The translations under genes were made by a program, and so were the position numbers. Below, in pieces: positions 1,796-12,213 of a stretch of 22,436 nt of DNA (positions are counted from its first letter, which is position 1; every line of letters starts with the position of its first letter). The DNA comes from a virus, in IMG/VR virus record IMGVR_UViG_3300017768_000101, positions 1-22,436 of that record; one strand, written 5' to 3'. The notes under the pieces are model-generated. The model saw only the letters and a program-made list of their open reading frames with translations, was not told the origin of the DNA and did not search any database.

Positions 1796-4700
1796 TTATC
1801 TTTTCCTACCTTCACCTTTTATACCAAATAGATATGCTCTTATTCGATCTATAGGTCCTCTTGGTTTCCACTTACCGGCTTCTTCATCAACGTATATACC
1901 AATTGGTTTAGCTATAAAGTATGTTGGTACTCTTGTAAATAAAGATGATAATGTTAATATGCTTCGTACTTCGTGACCTGAGATATCATCATCAGGGTCA
2001 AATAAACTCATTACAAATCTTGTTGAACCTTGAACAGTACTATTAATTAAAGATACTGAAGGACTTACTGTAATACGATCATTGTATGCTTTATCGTCAA
2101 ATTGATTTATAGGCATCATTAACATATTACCAAGAGGTACAAATGACGTGCCATATCTTAATGCTGACATATAACCAAATTCAAAAAAATCATCAATGTA
2201 GCCATCTTCGTCATCATCAACTAATCCACCACCTGCTAATTCTTGTATAGCTTCAGAAACAAGAGCAGGTAACATAAATCCAAACATAAATGTATAGATC
2301 AATTGACCACTAAACCGTTTAGAAGTAAATCCTAATTCTTTAATTAATGATTTATATGCTGTTGCATTAAGATTTGCCTGTCCATTAAAATAACTAGAAA
2401 ATTGAAACATTGCATTAAAAAATGGACTTGTAGTTTGATACGCTGCTCTATCTTCTGGTAACAAACTATCTTGTGTCATACGCACAGCACCATCTGCTTG
2501 TTGTATAGCTTCTTTTTGTACATCTGCTTCAAGCATAGTTTTAGGTGCATTTGCTAAAACTTGATTGTATTTAGCTATCCACACAACACTATCTACATAA
2601 TTCTGAAAAGCTTGTTGTACAAAATATGCGTGTTTAGCTACCCATCTTTGCATTTTTTCGTATTTTTCTGGGTTTAATGTCAACTCATTCATTAAATTTT
2701 GTACGTCAAACATTTGATTTACTTGACGATCAGCCATAAATGGTGACATCTGTGCTATTTCTTTTGATATTTTATGCGGTTCTCTTGTATATCTTTTAAA
2801 AGCATCATTTAAATATTTACCTTCTACTTTTATTTTTGCAGGTAACAAACCTGTAACCTGTTGCATACCATTTTTTAAACTTAAGAACATATAGTTTAAG
2901 CTTGTTGATCTTGTCATATAATTAATGCCATCGTTGTACCATGCTTTCTTTCCAAGCGTAGATTTTTGAGAAGCAGAATTTCTTAGCCAAGGTATAAGCA
3001 TATCTTTAATTGCTCTATCATCAACTCTGTTTAATTCTGTAGAAAATTCTTTGTTATTAAATAATTTAACTAAATCTGTAACAGCAGGTTGAATGTAAGC
3101 AAAACGTAAGGCGTTATCCATATGTGTTGCTTGTAAACCTAAATTAAGACTTAATGCTCTATTAACTTGTGTTCTAGGTTTTGTAAATCCTCTCTCTACT
3201 GCCGGAACTGAATATTGCATTTCTTGTCTAATATTTCTCAAAGTCTCATCTAAACTTAGATTTTTTGTTACTAAATCTGGGTCAGCCACAGCAGGTACAT
3301 AACCACCTGCATATGTACCAAATTGATTAACAATAGGTGTTGCTTCTACTTCCTTAAAATAATATCCAAATATATCTTTATGTGCCTGTTGTATTATTGG
3401 CAACATTTCTTTATTTAAATTAAAAACTCCTTGTATAAAATCAAAATCTTTACCTGTGAGAAATCCTTCTTGTATCATGCGGTCAACAAACGCATCCCAT
3501 TTAGAAGTATCTAATACACCATCTTTAATTTCTCCCCATCCTCTACCTACAAGTAACTTTGTTAAATTACTTTTATTTCCTGTGTGTAACATTGCTGCAA
3601 GCAATTCAGCCTTGCCCATTCCTCTTTGTCTGCCAAATGTAAATATGTTTCCATTTTTACTTACTAACTCAGGTGCTCTAATTTTGCCTTTACTAAAATC
3701 TGCTTGTGCCAACAAATCAACATAACGCCCTGTCCATTTAGGTCTTTCTTCTCTCCATTTAGTAATTGGATCTTTTAAAGTTCGCCAAATATATTTTGTA
3801 AAAGGACCTGCAACGTCACCTTCTTTTTTCATAAACACGCCATCTTTTAAAACTCTTGCATATGACTTGTCACCTGCAAGTCTTGCAACTTCACCGTCTT
3901 TACTGTCGCACCAATGTTCAACACGCCTTAACATTGCCTTTAAACCTTCAAGTGCATTTACTACCCTTTCCCACGGTGACAATGCACCTTGTTCTCCAAA
4001 TTCAATAGATGGCCTTGCATCCATATTTTTTAAAGGTGTAACCAAATCATCTACTACTTTTTGTTGTGCAACTAATCCTTCTGCTGTTCTAAATTGCTTA
4101 TCACGTTTTGATTGATAATCTAAAGATTGAATCAATTCATATAAAGTATCAAAATCTTGTGCAGTTAAATCTTTTATTTCACGACCTTCTAAATCTCTAC
4201 CTTCATCAACAATTGGAGATAATTCATCGTACATAGCTTGATCATAATTTTTTAAATCTTTTAAATAATTAACGCCATCTTCAACAGTAGGTCCTTCTCC
4301 ATAAAAAGATAATATTTGTTTAGCAGCATTTACATAATTCATTTCCCTAGTTTTTTGGTTTTTTGGATTGTATTTAAACAACACATCAAATAATTTTCTA
4401 GCTCTATCAACTTCTTTATGTATCTCTACAGCTTCACGAGCTAATTGACTATTAATTAATTCTGATTGCTTTGCTTCTATAACACCTTGATCATCGCCAT
4501 CTCTCATAGCTTTCTCTAAAAGTTTTCTTGCTCTTCTTTCGTTTTGTGCATATTTAGTTGGTCTTATATCACGCAATCTTGTTTTTCTTAAAATTCTTTG
4601 GGCTGCTTGCCTAGCTGCTGCAACTTGAAAACGTACTGGTTGTGTAGTCTTAGTTATAAACCGTAATTCTATTGCTAAAAATCTTGCTCTAGCTTCATTA

Positions 4701-5320
4701 TGTAATGCTTCTTGCAATGCTAATTCTTGCTGTCTTGGATCATTCATATCGCTATATTCATCTAATATACGCTTGTCTGTACGTTCTTTAATAACATCTT
4801 CTATTTTTTCTAGATCTACTAATGCATTAATCATTTCTACTGGATCTTCAAATCCAAATTGCTCTGCAACCATATCAACAGGTAAACCACCATTTTTAGT
4901 TACCATGCTATTACTGCCACCTTTAGATAATTGTTTAATTTCAGTTTGAAAATCATAAAAAGGTAATAAATTTTTAATTGTCTCTACATTTATTTTTGTA
5001 GTACCTAATGCTTGAAAAGGATTGTTATTTTTATCTTTCCATTCACCTTTCTTTAAAAACTTTTGCAATTTATATATAGTTTCTTGTTCGGCTTTAGCGG
5101 TTTCTTCTGCTTCTATTTGTTTGCGTATTTCTTTTGCTTCTTTTTTTTGTAATTTTTTAAATGTTTCACTTTTATTTTTTAACCATTTCATTTGACCCAT
5201 ACTAGCTTTTGTCAAAATATCTATGGCAGCTTCTTGTGTTTCTTGTATAGCATCTGTATATTCTTGCCATGTTTTATTGTCCATACCGCTTTGCTCTTGT
5301 GTTAAGAACATTGGTTGCAT
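1796..5320 (-). CDS. Internal virion (polyvalent) protein, C-terminal portion, 1174 aa
   Basis: Large protein likely ejected with the genome, corresponding to the distal part of the giant polyvalent proteins of marine podophages. Residues about 20-110 are helical and rich in Lys/Glu (MKWLKNK, KKLQKKEAKEIRKQ). The middle is helical and mostly unassignable, with pieces such as HWCDSKDG and DFDFIQGVFNL. Residues about 1000-1030 are hydrophobic (LIYTFMFGFMLPALV), a possible membrane-penetrating segment, after an aromatic stretch (SPFFNAMFQFSSYFN). It ends with a basic tail, GEGRKR. It is in the same reading frame as the upstream 1477-aa ORF, separated only by TAA and 11 sense codons, so it is probably the second half of one ancestral protein. 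The ATG at 5320 has a modest AAAGAG eight bases upstream and could be used independently. No catalytic motif was recognised. Confidence 0.75.
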   Translation of the reverse strand: MQPMFLTQEQSGMDNKTWQEYTDAIQETQEAAIDILTKASMGQMKWLKNKSETFKKLQKKEAKEIRKQIEAEETAKAEQETIYKLQKFLKKGEWKDKNNNPFQALGTTKINVETIKNLLPFYDFQTEIKQLSKGGSNSMVTKNGGLPVDMVAEQFGFEDPVEMINALVDLEKIEDVIKERTDKRILDEYSDMNDPRQQELALQEALHNEARARFLAIELRFITKTTQPVRFQVAAARQAAQRILRKTRLRDIRPTKYAQNERRARKLLEKAMRDGDDQGVIEAKQSELINSQLAREAVEIHKEVDRARKLFDVLFKYNPKNQKTREMNYVNAAKQILSFYGEGPTVEDGVNYLKDLKNYDQAMYDELSPIVDEGRDLEGREIKDLTAQDFDTLYELIQSLDYQSKRDKQFRTAEGLVAQQKVVDDLVTPLKNMDARPSIEFGEQGALSPWERVVNALEGLKAMLRRVEHWCDSKDGEVARLAGDKSYARVLKDGVFMKKEGDVAGPFTKYIWRTLKDPITKWREERPKWTGRYVDLLAQADFSKGKIRAPELVSKNGNIFTFGRQRGMGKAELLAAMLHTGNKSNLTKLLVGRGWGEIKDGVLDTSKWDAFVDRMIQEGFLTGKDFDFIQGVFNLNKEMLPIIQQAHKDIFGYYFKEVEATPIVNQFGTYAGGYVPAVADPDLVTKNLSLDETLRNIRQEMQYSVPAVERGFTKPRTQVNRALSLNLGLQATHMDNALRFAYIQPAVTDLVKLFNNKEFSTELNRVDDRAIKDMLIPWLRNSASQKSTLGKKAWYNDGINYMTRSTSLNYMFLSLKNGMQQVTGLLPAKIKVEGKYLNDAFKRYTREPHKISKEIAQMSPFMADRQVNQMFDVQNLMNELTLNPEKYEKMQRWVAKHAYFVQQAFQNYVDSVVWIAKYNQVLANAPKTMLEADVQKEAIQQADGAVRMTQDSLLPEDRAAYQTTSPFFNAMFQFSSYFNGQANLNATAYKSLIKELGFTSKRFSGQLIYTFMFGFMLPALVSEAIQELAGGGLVDDDEDGYIDDFFEFGYMSALRYGTSFVPLGNMLMMPINQFDDKAYNDRITVSPSVSLINSTVQGSTRFVMSLFDPDDDISGHEVRSILTLSSLFTRVPTYFIAKPIGIYVDEEAGKWKPRGPIDRIRAYLFGIKGEGRKR

Positions 5321-5353
5321 ACCATATACTCTTTGTGAAAATTGTATTTGTTC

Positions 5354-8300
5354 TTAACTAGCCAACATACGATCCATTACTGCTTTAACTTCTTCTGTCA
5401 ATACAGGTAATTCTTTTCCATTTTCTTTTTTATAAATTGCATTTAATTCATCTCGAATTGACTTATATATATTTCTTACATACTCACCAAATCTCATAAA
5501 TATATTTTGCATATCTATATTTGGTGCAGCTTTTTCTTCTGCTATATAGATTTCATAATTGTATGCAAATGATTCATGGTATTGTCTTTTTTGATTAAGA
5601 TCAAATTTGCTCCATGTTTCTACGTCTTTAACTCCCCAGAAATTCAAAAGCACATCAAAATCTTTTTGTATATCTGGAGGTGCTTGTCCTGATAAAACTA
5701 AATCTTCCATAACACTTAACATAAAGTGTGCTGTTTCATGGAAAAAAGTAGATATATCAGCTTCTTGATTTAAAAATATAGTTAAAGTTTTAGGATCAAA
5801 TCCACCTCTTGAATCTTCAAATTTATCTTGTTGTAAAAATTCTCCTGTTTCTACTTGAATAGATCCTCTAGGCTTTCCAACTGAGAGTCTGAAATCTCTT
5901 CGTCCGTTAGGGAATTCATCATCGAGACTAAGTCTAGTAGGGTCGATTCTGATGGCAACTGCTGTATTGCCATAGCCAGTATCTGCGATAGCTCTGGTGG
6001 TAACGTAGACATCAGGTTCTGCAACACTTCTGAGTTCACCTGTAGCTTTGATTCGTTCTGCGTTTGCTCTATTGGTGTGGTGGTAGACGGTAACTGTTCC
6101 GTCTGCATTAAGGGGGAGTCCTGTAGTCTCGTCAATGTTTGTTCCTTCTGATTCGAGTCCTTGTTGTTGGAAAGTATCAGTTCCTCGTACAATTCCAGAT
6201 TCTCCAACATCTCGTTGTGTGTCTCCTGATTGCTCCTCGGATTGTATTGATAACTCATTGTCTACCTCCTGTAATGTAGATTGAATTTCTGTTTCTGATA
6301 TACCCATTGTAGCAACTAAAGATGCAGCAGCATTGGCATAGTCGGGTGCTGAGTTATCTTCGTAGCCTGTTTCTACTACTGCTTCTTTTAATTTTGCAGA
6401 ATCATATAATTTTTTTTCTGGATACCAAACAAGTGCTTGTAAATCTGCCATTGTTAAGTTTGGATTTTGTTGTTGCATTACTGGCAATACTTGACTAAAA
6501 ACTTTTTCTATAAACCTTCTTTCTGGTGGTCCTTTAGGTTGTTCTTTTTGACCATCTAAATACCCTGCTAATGAATTACCTGCTTTGCGTATTTCATCTC
6601 CAATACCTATTCTAAGTTCACCTTTTATAGGTTTACCTTTAATACTTGTTATTGTGTTTGCAACATCATTATTTGGGTCAACTAGTGATATTGCTGCCAT
6701 TAATTTACGATTAGCAGGTAAAGCTGTTTTAGTTTCTATTCTTTTTGCAACTGCATCTATATCACCTAAAGTAAGTTTTCTATTTATTATTTTTTCAAAT
6801 TCTTTTTTTTGTTCTTTACTTAAAGCTTTTATATATTGTTTTAATTGGTTACGTTTAGTTTTAGCTTGCTTTGTATAATCAGTAACTAGCGTACCTGTCA
6901 TTCGACCCCATGTACGCATAGCCCATCTGTCTAAAGTTAATTGTTCATAATTGCCGTATAGATTTGCAAAAAACCCATTACCAATTTTAGGGCCTATAAC
7001 AGCAGCACCATACACTATTTCAGTTTTACCAAAATCTTTTATTTCTACTCCTGTATATGTTTCTACTTCTTTAACTGTATGAGTTGTTTTCATAAATTGT
7101 TCAACATCTTCTATACCTTTTTCTTCTATTAATCTATTTATTATTTTAAAACTTTTTGTCATTGCACGACCTGCTTTACCTGTTCCAAAAGGTATTGGAA
7201 ATGTGCCATTTTCTTTCCAATAACTATATACTTCATTAGCTAGTTCAAAGTTTTTATCTACTTTAATACCGTTAGAAGTGGTTGCTAATGCCCAAGTAAA
7301 AGCAAAATTTGATGCTGTATCAGTAGTTAATTCTGGATGTATTTTTGCTAATAATGCTTTAGCTTTTGTAACTTTTTCGTTATACCAACCTATTGCGTTT
7401 GGATTTTCTATTAATGCGTATTGTGCATCTGCTAATAATGTTTGCACAAGATATTTTTCTACTTCAACTGTAGGTTGTGATAAATCTATCCCTGCTTTTT
7501 TTGCTTCTTTTAATACACGATTTTGTATTTCTATTTTAAAGTCACGATTAGTTGCAAAAGGTTTGCTACTTGCAAAATTAAAATTTTCTACAATTCTTGC
7601 TATTTGAAATACAGCTTGCGGTACTAATTTACCTTGTTCTTGTGGTTTTGCTTGTTGTGAAAATATTTCACGTTCATTTTCAAGATCACTAATTTGATCA
7701 TTAATTGCATCTGTTTTAGTCTTCCAATTTTGTAGTTCTGCTTCTTCAGTTGGTTCTGGCCCTAGTTCTTTTAACTGCTGTCTTAACTGTCCTATTTGAT
7801 TATTAGTACCGTCTAATAATTTAGCAACTTCTATTTGATTAGGTCCAATAATTCTTATTGGGTATTTTTTAAAAACTTCATCAGGTAATATTCCTAATCT
7901 ATTTCCTAATGTAATTGCAAGATTTTGATAAAAAGTAGCACCTTCTAATTGACCTCTTCTAGTAGGAAATTTACCAGAACTTTTTAACATTGCAGCCATA
8001 TCTTTTTTTACTTTGGTTGCACTAGCTCTATATTTTTTTGTTTGGTTTGCATCTCTATTTGCTATTTCAGTAGCTTCTTTTTCTAACTTATCTTTATTGG
8101 CTTGAAAATATGTTTTTTCTGCTTGGCTAAAACTTTTGTCTTTATCAAATCTTCTATGCTGTTTTAATATACCGTCTAAGTTTGTACCTACAAGTTTTGT
8201 AGAGTATTCACCAATAGGAACTACAATATCATTTCCCGATATTGTACCTGTATTGTTAAACACTTCTAATTGTCTAGCTATTGTTGGCGATACTTTTTTT

Positions 8301-9787
8301 ATGTCATTTATATCTAGACCTAGTTCTTTCATTGATTGAGCAAATGCTTGTGCATCAAAATACACATCAGTTATTCCTTTTTCATTTCCAATTGCTTGAG
8401 TTACACTTTGAAAATCAACTGGGTTTCTTTCCTTTAACTTACTTTCATTTGCTTGTTTTTCTAACGCTTCAAAAAAGACCTCTTGTCTTCTAGCATTTTT
8501 CATTTTATTAACATCTGCTATATATGTAGGACCACCACCAACTAAACCTACTACAGACATACCTTGTATAGTTCTGTAAAAAGTCATTGCTAGTTGTTTT
8601 CCAACTTCAGATATTCCTTCCCAACTTGTAAATTGTGATTCTACGTCTTCTCTACTGTCATACATTACAGCTATTTCACGACCTATTATTTGTGTAAGTT
8701 CTTGCAATGTTTCAGTAGCTGATTCTCCTAAACCTGCCTTGGCATAATTCATAGCAAAGTTTTTTAAAGCATATCTTCCACCCGGTTTAAGTAATTCTTT
8801 GGAAATTTGTTTAGCTGCTGCTCTAGTTAATAATTTTCTTATAGGTGCAGAAACAATACTCATTCCCCAAATTTCTAACGCTGCACTAGTTAATCCAACA
8901 CCAGTTGCAATCCATTTAGAATGATTTTTATCAAACCCTGCATCTACCAAAGAAAGATAAGAATTACCAGATTCAACTGCCCACGAGTCATAAGCAAGTG
9001 ATCCTAAAAAACCAACAACAAATCCACCTTTAGCAGTAAAAGCTGAACCCGGTCCTGTCCAAGAACCTAAAGCTCCACCAACAACTGCACCTGCTCCACC
9101 TTTTGCAAATGCGTGTGGCAAAGTTTTTGAGTATTGTCCAAATATTGCAAAACCTTCTTCAAAAGGACCAGTACCGTCTGCTTCTAATTCTTTCAACCTA
9201 GCATCTATTTCTCCTAGTTCATCTAAAGTTTCTTGGTCAGGATTAGCACTCCATTGTAGTTCAACACCAATATGACCTCTTCTAGTTTGCAATCTACCTT
9301 TTTCCCAACCTTGCATCATGTTTTCTGGGATTTCAGTAAAATCATGGAATAACTTTTCTAGCCCTTGTAAATTATCTATATTGTCATAAGCTAAAGCTGC
9401 AAATTTAGGATCAGTTAATTGTTTATGTAAAACAGGGCTATATCTGGCTAAATTTAAACTGTTTAAATAATCTTCTTGTTTCTTTCTTTTCATCAATACT
9501 ATTGCTTTATCGCTGTCTAAAGAAAGAGATTGTGGTAGTCCTAATTCATCTGCAAGTCTTAACGCTTCACCTACTCTGTTAGGATCTCTTGCCATAACAG
9601 CTTGTAAATTTTGTTTTACTTTTAAATCTGCAAGTTTTTTATCTTGATCAATAAAAGATTGATACAAGTTAGGTCCATTTTGTATGCCCGAAGCGTAATT
9701 ATTGCCAACAATTAAATTACTATTGTCTTCATCAAGACTTTCTTCTTCTTTAAAATCTTTAGCTATGTTGTCGTAAATGTTTGTCAT
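5354..9787 (-). CDS. Polyvalent internal virion protein with ART-like and HETAH zincin domains, 1477 aa
   Basis: Giant internal virion protein in the position of T7 gp16 (about 1318 aa). Gly-rich hydrophobic stretches near residues 225-265 (GGAGAVVGGALGSWTGPGS, then GFVVGFLGSLAY) suggest a membrane-insertion region. A WYPEKKLY motif at about residue 1121, after MADLQALV, is typical of phage polyvalent proteins. An ADP-ribosyltransferase-like domain covers about 1225-1330, with YHHT at 1235-1238 and VYVTT about 30 residues later. HETAH at 1350-1354 is an HExxH zincin motif, and the downstream HESFAYNYEIY could supply a further ligand. The ORF ends at DRMLAS followed by TAA, beyond which the same frame continues as the next gene. 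The start overlaps the preceding stop (ATGA) and has no clear Shine-Dalgarno, implying coupling. No lysozyme or transglycosylase signature is visible. The codons of the ART region end in C far more often than those of its neighbours. Confidence 0.8.
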   Translation of the reverse strand: MTNIYDNIAKDFKEEESLDEDNSNLIVGNNYASGIQNGPNLYQSFIDQDKKLADLKVKQNLQAVMARDPNRVGEALRLADELGLPQSLSLDSDKAIVLMKRKKQEDYLNSLNLARYSPVLHKQLTDPKFAALAYDNIDNLQGLEKLFHDFTEIPENMMQGWEKGRLQTRRGHIGVELQWSANPDQETLDELGEIDARLKELEADGTGPFEEGFAIFGQYSKTLPHAFAKGGAGAVVGGALGSWTGPGSAFTAKGGFVVGFLGSLAYDSWAVESGNSYLSLVDAGFDKNHSKWIATGVGLTSAALEIWGMSIVSAPIRKLLTRAAAKQISKELLKPGGRYALKNFAMNYAKAGLGESATETLQELTQIIGREIAVMYDSREDVESQFTSWEGISEVGKQLAMTFYRTIQGMSVVGLVGGGPTYIADVNKMKNARRQEVFFEALEKQANESKLKERNPVDFQSVTQAIGNEKGITDVYFDAQAFAQSMKELGLDINDIKKVSPTIARQLEVFNNTGTISGNDIVVPIGEYSTKLVGTNLDGILKQHRRFDKDKSFSQAEKTYFQANKDKLEKEATEIANRDANQTKKYRASATKVKKDMAAMLKSSGKFPTRRGQLEGATFYQNLAITLGNRLGILPDEVFKKYPIRIIGPNQIEVAKLLDGTNNQIGQLRQQLKELGPEPTEEAELQNWKTKTDAINDQISDLENEREIFSQQAKPQEQGKLVPQAVFQIARIVENFNFASSKPFATNRDFKIEIQNRVLKEAKKAGIDLSQPTVEVEKYLVQTLLADAQYALIENPNAIGWYNEKVTKAKALLAKIHPELTTDTASNFAFTWALATTSNGIKVDKNFELANEVYSYWKENGTFPIPFGTGKAGRAMTKSFKIINRLIEEKGIEDVEQFMKTTHTVKEVETYTGVEIKDFGKTEIVYGAAVIGPKIGNGFFANLYGNYEQLTLDRWAMRTWGRMTGTLVTDYTKQAKTKRNQLKQYIKALSKEQKKEFEKIINRKLTLGDIDAVAKRIETKTALPANRKLMAAISLVDPNNDVANTITSIKGKPIKGELRIGIGDEIRKAGNSLAGYLDGQKEQPKGPPERRFIEKVFSQVLPVMQQQNPNLTMADLQALVWYPEKKLYDSAKLKEAVVETGYEDNSAPDYANAAASLVATMGISETEIQSTLQEVDNELSIQSEEQSGDTQRDVGESGIVRGTDTFQQQGLESEGTNIDETTGLPLNADGTVTVYHHTNRANAERIKATGELRSVAEPDVYVTTRAIADTGYGNTAVAIRIDPTRLSLDDEFPNGRRDFRLSVGKPRGSIQVETGEFLQQDKFEDSRGGFDPKTLTIFLNQEADISTFFHETAHFMLSVMEDLVLSGQAPPDIQKDFDVLLNFWGVKDVETWSKFDLNQKRQYHESFAYNYEIYIAEEKAAPNIDMQNIFMRFGEYVRNIYKSIRDELNAIYKKENGKELPVLTEEVKAVMDRMLAS
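5851..6258 (-). CDS. Candidate overlapping ORF in the +1 frame inside the polyvalent gene, 135 aa
   Basis: This ORF lies entirely inside the 1477-aa gene, shifted by one base, and spans main-frame residues about 1177-1312. Its ATG at 6258 is preceded by a perfect ribosome binding site, CAGGAGGTAGACAATG, stronger than that of most accepted genes here. The product begins MSYQYNPRSNQETHNE, is acidic and Gln/Ser/Leu-rich, and the C-terminal half (LPPELSQILAMAIQQL, then EEISDSQLESLEDLFK) reads as plausible amphipathic helices. It has no recognised family. The region has much higher G+C than its flanks, which lowers the chance of stops in every frame, so the open length alone is not proof. The main frame here encodes a recognisable ART-like fold, so this would be an overprinted gene or a chance ORF. 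Confidence 0.35.
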   Translation of the reverse strand: MSYQYNPRSNQETHNEMLENLELYEELILSNNKDSNQKEQTLTRLQDSPLMQTEQLPSTTTPIEQTQNESKLQVNSEVLQNLMSTLPPELSQILAMAIQQLPSESTLLDLVSMMNSLTDEEISDSQLESLEDLFK

Positions 9788-12213
9788 TTCATATTACTTT
9801 GTAAAAAATCAGCTGAATACGCATTCATGTCTAAATCATTATCAGCCGTTGGCCTTCCACCACGATCCCAAAATATGGCTATATTTTGTGCTGTTACTGG
9901 TATGCCATTGTCTAATAATATTTGTACTATATTTTCTCTTTGATATTTATTTATATCTTTTATCCACACAGTTTTGCCATTTGCTTTGACGTATATATCA
10001 TCAAATTGATCTTCATCTATTGATGCAAGAGGTAACGCAAAATCATCGCCACCCATATTCCATGCCCAAGTCCATTCTTTTGGATCAAGTATTACTTTGT
10101 CATTTAATATTTCAACTAACAATTCTCTTTTTCTTTCACGACCTACTTTGTTACCAGTTTTTCGTTCTTCTTCTGCTATTGAATTTCTCCATGCATCTTG
10201 TATTTGTATGTAATCATCTTTAAGTGTATCATCAGCATCTGTTCTATATAAATCAGCAAACCCTGCTTTTTTTAACTCATTTTTAAGCATAATGTTATCA
10301 GTACCTACAGCACTTACATCTTCACTAGTTTTTAATGAGTCTGCATAAGCAGTTAATTTTGCGTAATCAACTTTGTTTAAACTAGTACGATACATTTCTA
10401 AATTATTTTTTAATTCTCCGGGATTATCAATAAGCTGTATTACTGCGTTTTTATCTGACTCTAGTGGCTGTCCTTTTTTTAATCTTTCTTGATCTTTTAG
10501 CGTAAACATACTTATATCTATACCATTAGCTTCAAGATCTCTCCACCCACCGTCTTTAGACAAGGCTATTTCTTGTGCTTTTAAATATGTTTCATTATAT
10601 TGATTTGTTCTTTGATCATTTAACTGGTTGTATTTTAATTTTAAATCTTCTTTTGCATAAGCTAATTGTTTAGGATCATCTATTGTATTTTCTAAATGTT
10701 TTTCGTATACACTTAATGGTTGTAAACCTGTTACACCATTAACGTCTTTGTATCTAACACCTTCTTGTAAAATTTTTATATCTTTAATTACTTGATTAGT
10801 ATATTTTTTATTATTAGTTTCCCACTCTGCTGTGGCATTTTCGTATTGTTTTGAACCTGATTTTGTATTTGGGTAATCATCGCGGTTTGGTTTTGCTACA
10901 TTATTTGTAAATTTTTTATCAACTTCTTTAATAAATAATTTATTAAACTCATTTAAAACTTTTGCATCAATTTCTCTTTTATATCCTTCATCAGTTTCAT
11001 ATTTATCTTTATCAATTTTTACATTTTTAAGTGCTTTTGTATAAAACTTGTCAGCTTTTTCTACACCTATTGTCTGTATAGCAAACAAATGTGATGGTTG
11101 ATTTACTTCACTTATTAATATAGTAGAATCTGCTTGGAAAAATTTTGATTCATTTCTTTTTTGTTCTAATATATTAACCCTTTCATCTCTAGTAAAATCT
11201 TCTACGTTTAATTCATTTGAATGAAATCCATCAATACATATTCCGTCATTATTATTATCTTCATTATTATTAGATGCTAAACACAATGTAAGATTTGCTT
11301 GGTTTGAAAAACTTGTATCTGTTGGATTATTGTTATTTAATATATGATTTACTATTTCACCGGCATTATAATCTTTATGTTTTTCTTTAACTGATTGCAC
11401 TAAAACTGCTGCACTATCTTGATCTATATCACCTGCCTGATAATGTGCAGTAATGTATTCAGTTATTTGCCCCCATTTTTCTTGTTTTGCTAAAGTATTT
11501 ATTACACCTTCATGGATTTTCATATTATATTCACTAACTCTTCTTAGCCACTCTTGACTTGTTTTTTCGCCCCTAGTTATTAGTCCATCATTTATTGCTT
11601 GTTCTTCTAATAATTGTAAACCTGCTACACGACTTGTATTGTGTTCACTTGTAGGATCTTTCCATGCTTCTGCATCAACAATAGAAGCATTTTGATAATT
11701 ACCAATTGTTACTTTACGTTCATTATCTGCATAATCACGTTGTGCTTTTATTGAATGTGTAGTCATGCTTGATTGTGCTGACTTAATAGACACCTGTGCC
11801 AGATTTTCAAACATATATTTAACAACACCGTTACTTGCTTTACCTGTGTAATTTTCTAATAAATCTTTTATTTTGCCGTTATATACATCGTATTGTCTTT
11901 TTGGTTCGCCACCTTCTGTATCTGAAGGAACTGTGGCAACAGCAAGTGCTCCTTCTAAATCTAAATAATCTCGTCTTATAGTATCTAAATCAGAATAAAA
12001 ATTATTAAATAGTTGCTTAGATTCCGCATCATTTATTTCGTCATCTATTTTATTTAATACTTGCCCAAACTCTTGTTGAGCTTTACCCATGCGGATTATA
12101 TCGTCAGATACTACATCTTGTTGTGGTTTTACATCAGTAGCACCAAACTGCACTTCAGAACCTGTGTCTACCTGTTGAGTTAAGTTGTAGTTTTGAAAAG
12201 GTACTTTTGCCAT
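9784..12213 (-). CDS. Internal virion core protein, T7 gp15-like, 809 aa
   Basis: Its size (T7 gp15 is about 747 aa) and its position between a gp14-like gene and the giant last internal protein support a gp15-type core or ejection protein. It would form part of the internal core and then the conduit through which DNA enters the cell. The chain is hydrophilic and largely helical. It starts with a disordered Gln-rich leader (MAKVPFQNYNLTQQV) and continues with helical segments such as MGKAQQEFGQVLNKIDDEIN. A short Asn/Asp-rich loop (EDNNNDGICIDG) sits near residue 315, and the C-terminal part includes IFWDRGGRPT. No enzymatic motif was recognised. There is no Shine-Dalgarno: the upstream gene ends TAA, two bases, ATG (TAATTATG), so translation is probably coupled. 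Its own stop overlaps the next start as ATGA. Confidence 0.78.
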   Translation of the reverse strand: MAKVPFQNYNLTQQVDTGSEVQFGATDVKPQQDVVSDDIIRMGKAQQEFGQVLNKIDDEINDAESKQLFNNFYSDLDTIRRDYLDLEGALAVATVPSDTEGGEPKRQYDVYNGKIKDLLENYTGKASNGVVKYMFENLAQVSIKSAQSSMTTHSIKAQRDYADNERKVTIGNYQNASIVDAEAWKDPTSEHNTSRVAGLQLLEEQAINDGLITRGEKTSQEWLRRVSEYNMKIHEGVINTLAKQEKWGQITEYITAHYQAGDIDQDSAAVLVQSVKEKHKDYNAGEIVNHILNNNNPTDTSFSNQANLTLCLASNNNEDNNNDGICIDGFHSNELNVEDFTRDERVNILEQKRNESKFFQADSTILISEVNQPSHLFAIQTIGVEKADKFYTKALKNVKIDKDKYETDEGYKREIDAKVLNEFNKLFIKEVDKKFTNNVAKPNRDDYPNTKSGSKQYENATAEWETNNKKYTNQVIKDIKILQEGVRYKDVNGVTGLQPLSVYEKHLENTIDDPKQLAYAKEDLKLKYNQLNDQRTNQYNETYLKAQEIALSKDGGWRDLEANGIDISMFTLKDQERLKKGQPLESDKNAVIQLIDNPGELKNNLEMYRTSLNKVDYAKLTAYADSLKTSEDVSAVGTDNIMLKNELKKAGFADLYRTDADDTLKDDYIQIQDAWRNSIAEEERKTGNKVGRERKRELLVEILNDKVILDPKEWTWAWNMGGDDFALPLASIDEDQFDDIYVKANGKTVWIKDINKYQRENIVQILLDNGIPVTAQNIAIFWDRGGRPTADNDLDMNAYSADFLQSNMK

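Follow-up and report, generated by a model that had tools for sequence, protein, structure and literature searches.

A private in-frame stop codon divides a giant virion gene in one metagenomic podovirus-type record and probably arose at an inverted repeat

The window, by which we mean the whole stretch of DNA analysed, is a virus record of 22,436 bases and a linear fragment. Its minus strand encodes a podovirus structural module, with genes for the portal (Head-tail_con), the major capsid protein (GP7), tail tubular and nozzle proteins and an internal virion protein. They are accompanied by an 809-codon gene, a giant gene and a gene for a tail fibre, the last of which is cut off by the end of the record. 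The gene upstream of the giant gene in the open reading frame list (positions 9784 to 12213, minus strand) shares 4 bases with the start of the giant gene. Synteny with BPP-1 bbp11, Carin1 gp33 and CP2 gp24 puts it where related phages have their lysozyme/endolysin internal virion gene. When the other conserved genes of the window were compared with those of relatives, no second frameshift or stop was seen, and the genes look intact.

The giant gene is present as two open reading frames on the minus strand, separated by a single stop codon. The N-terminal half (5354 to 9787) has 1477 codons and contains the LPD22 domain, an ART-like segment recognized by eye and a zincin-like peptidase module. 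It terminates in a TAA at 5356-5354, which is counted within the coordinates of this first frame. The C-terminal half (1796 to 5320) has 1174 codons counted from an ATG at 5320-5318, a candidate restart codon that nearly all relatives have as an ordinary Met within the gene. Between the TAA and this ATG lie 11 sense codons, EQIQFSQRVYG (5321 to 5353), which are kept as coding sequence in relatives, and the stop-free frame 3' of the TAA is therefore 1185 codons long (1174 + 11). Read on the minus strand, the junction is GATCGTATGTTGGCTAGT TAA GAACAAATACAATTTTCACAAAGAGTATATGGT ATG, or DRMLAS-stop-EQIQFSQRVYG-M in a single frame, and the TAA is the sole in-frame stop between the two long frames. 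The first-pass annotation had described this arrangement, with two frames in one register separated by a TAA and 11 sense codons, and its coordinates and sequence are correct. The motif order that it gave for such proteins, DRMLA followed by E/D-rich residues and then PMF and GM, is also borne out by the alignment.

Homology shows that the two frames are halves of one gene: they match consecutive parts of one protein family profile and relatives have a single frame. In PHROG 9880 (2231 positions), the end of the first frame covers positions 939-1087 and the second covers 1100-2226 (E 5.7e-187), so that both halves match the profile in order. Homology defines this family; an uninterrupted frame is typical of its members rather than part of the definition, and the window lacks one. 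The window gene belongs with the giant virion genes of the BPP-1 bbp10 type (Rauchvirus bbp10, Carin1 gp32, CP2 gp25 and ctQRb9 UOF81042). Like them, it lies 3' of a lysozyme-type internal virion gene and, as in most of them, before a tail fibre or spike gene. All of these genes are one uninterrupted CDS, whereas the window gene has one stop in its middle. Near its N-terminus (residues 60-152 of the N-terminal half) we found a match to Pfam LPD22, large polyvalent protein associated domain 22, above the Pfam cut-off (E 1.9e-11), which upholds the earlier label 'polyvalent'. The locus is a giant virion gene of a podovirus-type phage that is normally single, about 2,660 codons long in the window. 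The proposal that one giant gene was broken by a one-base change is supported by these matches and by the uninterrupted frames of relatives.

To place the stop codon among its homologues, loci were collected with a profile search (80 from IMG/VR) and a genome search (5 more), and 84 of them cover the stop site; a few are the same contigs as the aligned relatives L001-L012. Across these loci, from IMG/VR and GTDB genomes, none has a stop at the site and none has a split gene (0/84 in each case). The codon there is GAA in 60, GAT in 7, GAG in 4, GAC in 3, AAT in 3, CAA, CAG and AAA in 2 each and ACA in 1. The residue is accordingly Glu or Asp in most loci and Asn, Gln, Lys or Thr in the others. 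Uninterrupted frames with a sense codon at the site are seen in L017/L012, L001-L011, ctQRb9, DC33 and zth2-2. The scan of the genome collection returned only distant relatives, all with a sense codon where the site is covered. In GenBank, the annotated homologue of eleven phages is an undivided CDS, between about 2,000 and 3,210 codons long (ctQRb9, DC33, Ab9, ctEw122, Carin1, UFJF_PfDIW6, SR18, BPP-1 with bbp10, AF, Vibrio 1.185.O and CP2). One of these, Limnohabitans phage DC33 (PQ492659.1), has a podovirus-like genome of 39 kb; GenBank files it under Inoviridae, the filamentous phages, which is contradicted by its gene content. The giant gene is a mosaic: in relatives of the L001/L005 type, roughly 200-500 additional codons are inserted close to window residue 1320. 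Another relative, L019, matches residues 687-1477 at 77%, residues 48-642 at 27% and the C-terminal half at 40%.

The stop falls at the border of a putative enzyme module. Just upstream of it, at 5380 to 5770 on the minus strand, motifs point to a candidate zincin-like metallopeptidase, with HETAH at 5740-5726 and HESFAYNYE at 5578-5552. Both are invariant or nearly so in the family alignments. The pattern HETAH + HExFAxNxE is strongly conserved, the Pfam profile Tox-MPTase4 matches weakly (E 0.03, 2/27 members), PDB sequence searches found nothing, and a PDB fold search gave nothing significant. The assignment by motif agrees with the description of polyvalent proteins such as P1 DdrB and the N4 virion RNAP, whose zincin-like MPTase domains combine HExxH with a Glu in a later helix (PMC5512222). 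The window protein resembles these proteins (Iyer et al., 2017; PMC5512222) in having an LPD domain, HExxH with a conserved Glu segment and the build of a large multidomain phage protein. The DdrB chain is processed proteolytically before packaging (PMC5512222), whereas in the window a stop codon terminates the chain past its MPTase-like module, and a relation between the two is unsupported. In an AlphaFold2 model of the junction, with the TAA read as a residue, the stop lies between helices 226-236 and 239-255, in a hinge (237-242) with pLDDT under 50; confidence in the model is low (pTM 0.36). A contig from a Zoogloeaceae MAG (L115) has the same zincin-like module and then continues into a C-terminal part that is unrelated; its homology to the window stops three residues before the TAA. 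This comparison suggests that modules have been exchanged at the very border that the stop marks in the window. Based on the model hinge and the L115 border, a break at the TAA would cut between modules.

The age of the stop can be approached through the closest record, L017 (IMG/VR 3300030333_000684), which is 87% identical to the window over 9.7 kb and 80% identical in amino acids across all 1477 residues of the N-terminal half. Its codon at the site is GAA. From 5383 to 5259, a stretch of 125 bases, the single difference between the two records is the first base of the stop codon. From 5747 to 5259 there are 20 differences, 17 of them at third codon positions, and the last change before the stop outside a third position is at 5572. 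Across the last 136 codons before the stop, dN/dS is 0.03. The third-position bias and the position of the last other change indicate constraint through the junction until very recently. A degenerate scan of the junction for records of the same species, allowing any base at the first position of the stop, matched L017 only. The L017 contig ends 97 bases past the stop site, which is as far as this comparison can serve to date the stop. Two window-like contigs of sample 3300030333 (L017 and L018) break inside the giant gene; strain variation is possibly the cause of the L017 break.

We asked if the C-terminal half has decayed. In this half the window line has as many amino acid changes as its comparators; with L013 as outgroup, for example, it has 92 where L001 has 76, and 84 where L005 has 87. 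The window keeps 173 of 177 residues that are otherwise invariant in the other aligned sequences. By these relative-rate counts and invariant residues, no decay or relaxed selection was seen in comparison with relatives, and the sequence gives no sign of any prolonged period free of selection. An undecayed C-terminal half fits a very recent change, an error and continued expression alike.

The base that creates the stop also completes an inverted repeat. Folding of the junction and a repeat scan identified two arms on the minus strand, GTTAAGAACA (5358-5349), which contains the TAA, and TGTTCTTAAC (5310-5301), separated by a loop of 38 nt. In the window all 10 bp of this inverted repeat pair. 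The L017 counterparts, GTGAAGAACA and TGTTCTTAAC, pair at 9/10 positions, with the stop's base as the sole mismatch; arm 2 is identical in L017, and the other clades aligned differ there and lack the partner arm. Ten base pairs is the longest perfect inverted repeat of such spacing in the record (tied), and arms of this kind cover 0.27% of positions. Sole mismatches of such stems make up 0.77% of positions in L017, and a random substitution would therefore perfect one about 0.26% of the time. Coincidental completion of a repeat does occur, as 6 of the 1130 differences between the window and L017 fall in 10-bp arms (three repeats). The repeat was spotted after the junction had been folded, so the argument is post hoc and provides good, not conclusive, evidence.

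Mutations that perfect quasi-palindromes via template switching are well established; yeast CYC1 and phage T4 rIIB gave the first cases, and E. coli thyA is a later-documented hotspot (PMC7202029). The change from 9/10 pairs in L017 to 10/10 in the window has the mark of such an event, a derived base that improves an imperfect inverted repeat. As in the T4 rIIB and E. coli thyA cases, one change would have perfected the repeat by copying of the other arm. The window differs from them in that its arms are only 10 bp long with a 38-nt loop, and here the event is deduced from one comparison. Taken together, these sequence comparisons suggest that the stop base probably originated by template switching. 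DNA synthesis crossing the imperfect repeat would have jumped to the nascent strand as its template and continued along the partner arm; the copy so made would have replaced the sense codon by TAA and perfected the 10-bp repeat. The setting could have been the phage population, in which the allele would be defective or mildly impaired, or library amplification or assembly. We therefore favor, with somewhat better than even confidence, a private and recent one-base nonsense change made in this way, in the phage or in vitro. A nonsense mutation and a sequence error both remain as origins of the TAA. If the stop is real, the product would break off directly behind the zincin-like peptidase module, with the C-terminal part of 1174 codons lost or weakly made by restart; we infer the loss of the C-terminal product as a consequence. 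Against this explanation stands the position of the stop between modules, since a split would most plausibly be viable at such a boundary.

That position raises the question whether the split is functional. The stop would then be a true allele, with ribosomes restarting at ATG 5320, 33 bases downstream, and the two proteins co-assembling in the virion as a nascent fission. We regard this as unlikely, and its more specific form, in which a template-switch stop at the peptidase-module border is followed by a C-terminal part made from the internal Met and assembled into the virion, as quite unlikely. The idea gains from the location of the stop, with the zincin-like module on one side and a helical C-terminal part on the other, and from L115, where the same module is joined to an unrelated C-terminal part at nearly the same residue. 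The Met at 5320 is also in frame, both halves are undecayed, and the genes starting at 12213 and 9787 lack an SD, so weak start signals do exist in this genome. However, undecayed halves are equally expected of a very recent change or an error, the junction model is weak, the stop and the ATG do not overlap, and none of the 84 homologous loci is split. The upstream sequence of ATG 5320 offers little either. The first-pass annotation had pointed to AAAGAG, a supposed ribosome-binding site, as a signal for reinitiation, but the SD there is worth -2.4 kcal/mol, a value equalled by 48% of the 108 internal in-frame ATGs and thus average for internal Met codons; many genes of the window have -6 to -11 kcal/mol. 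A dedicated re-initiation signal was therefore rejected. Restart at ATG 5320 is possible, and nothing in the sequence looks shaped for it.

A plain sequencing or assembly miscall at low coverage, unconnected with the inverted repeat, would also explain a stop that is private to one record, with neither half decayed and the remaining genes intact against relatives, in a metagenomic virus record that is a linear fragment. We consider it rather improbable, as a random error would so seldom perfect the repeat and private changes at invariant residues of the C-terminal half show no obvious excess (4/177). Read-through of the TAA, programmed or driven by a suppressor, with low-level synthesis of the full-length product, is very unlikely. 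The frame is open and conserved on both sides of the stop, which forms part of a hairpin arm whose perfectly matching partner follows after 38 nt, but the hairpin is not unusually stable (z -1.4) and is particular to the lineage of the window and L017, and a conserved RNA structure at the stop was rejected on these grounds. A search across the window for tRNA genes found none, which dismisses a suppressor tRNA encoded there. TAA is the commonest terminator in the window and the normal stop of other genes, and no relative has any stop at the site; the read-through option raised at first thus found no support. Least credible, to the point of being negligible, is the idea that the clade as a whole has a stably split gene or a recoded TAA. 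Real fission had been among the options at first, and relatives with two genes and diverged linkers were sought, but all relatives examined have single frames and the SD at the restart codon is only average, so stable fission was ruled out. Reassignment of TAA was likewise set aside: it ends most window genes and stands in frame inside no other long conserved gene, this being the one case. As far as these data go, fission and recoding at the level of the clade are excluded.

The best reading of the locus is a private allele or a copying error, which makes it a caution about giant phage genes seen split in a single metagenomic record. The inverted repeat suggests a simple candidate cause of isolated nonsense codons in virus contigs. 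If the split is real and viable, it would show that large virion proteins of the PHROG 9880 family are divisible at a module border, and the phage would allow a natural test of the need to keep both parts in a single chain.
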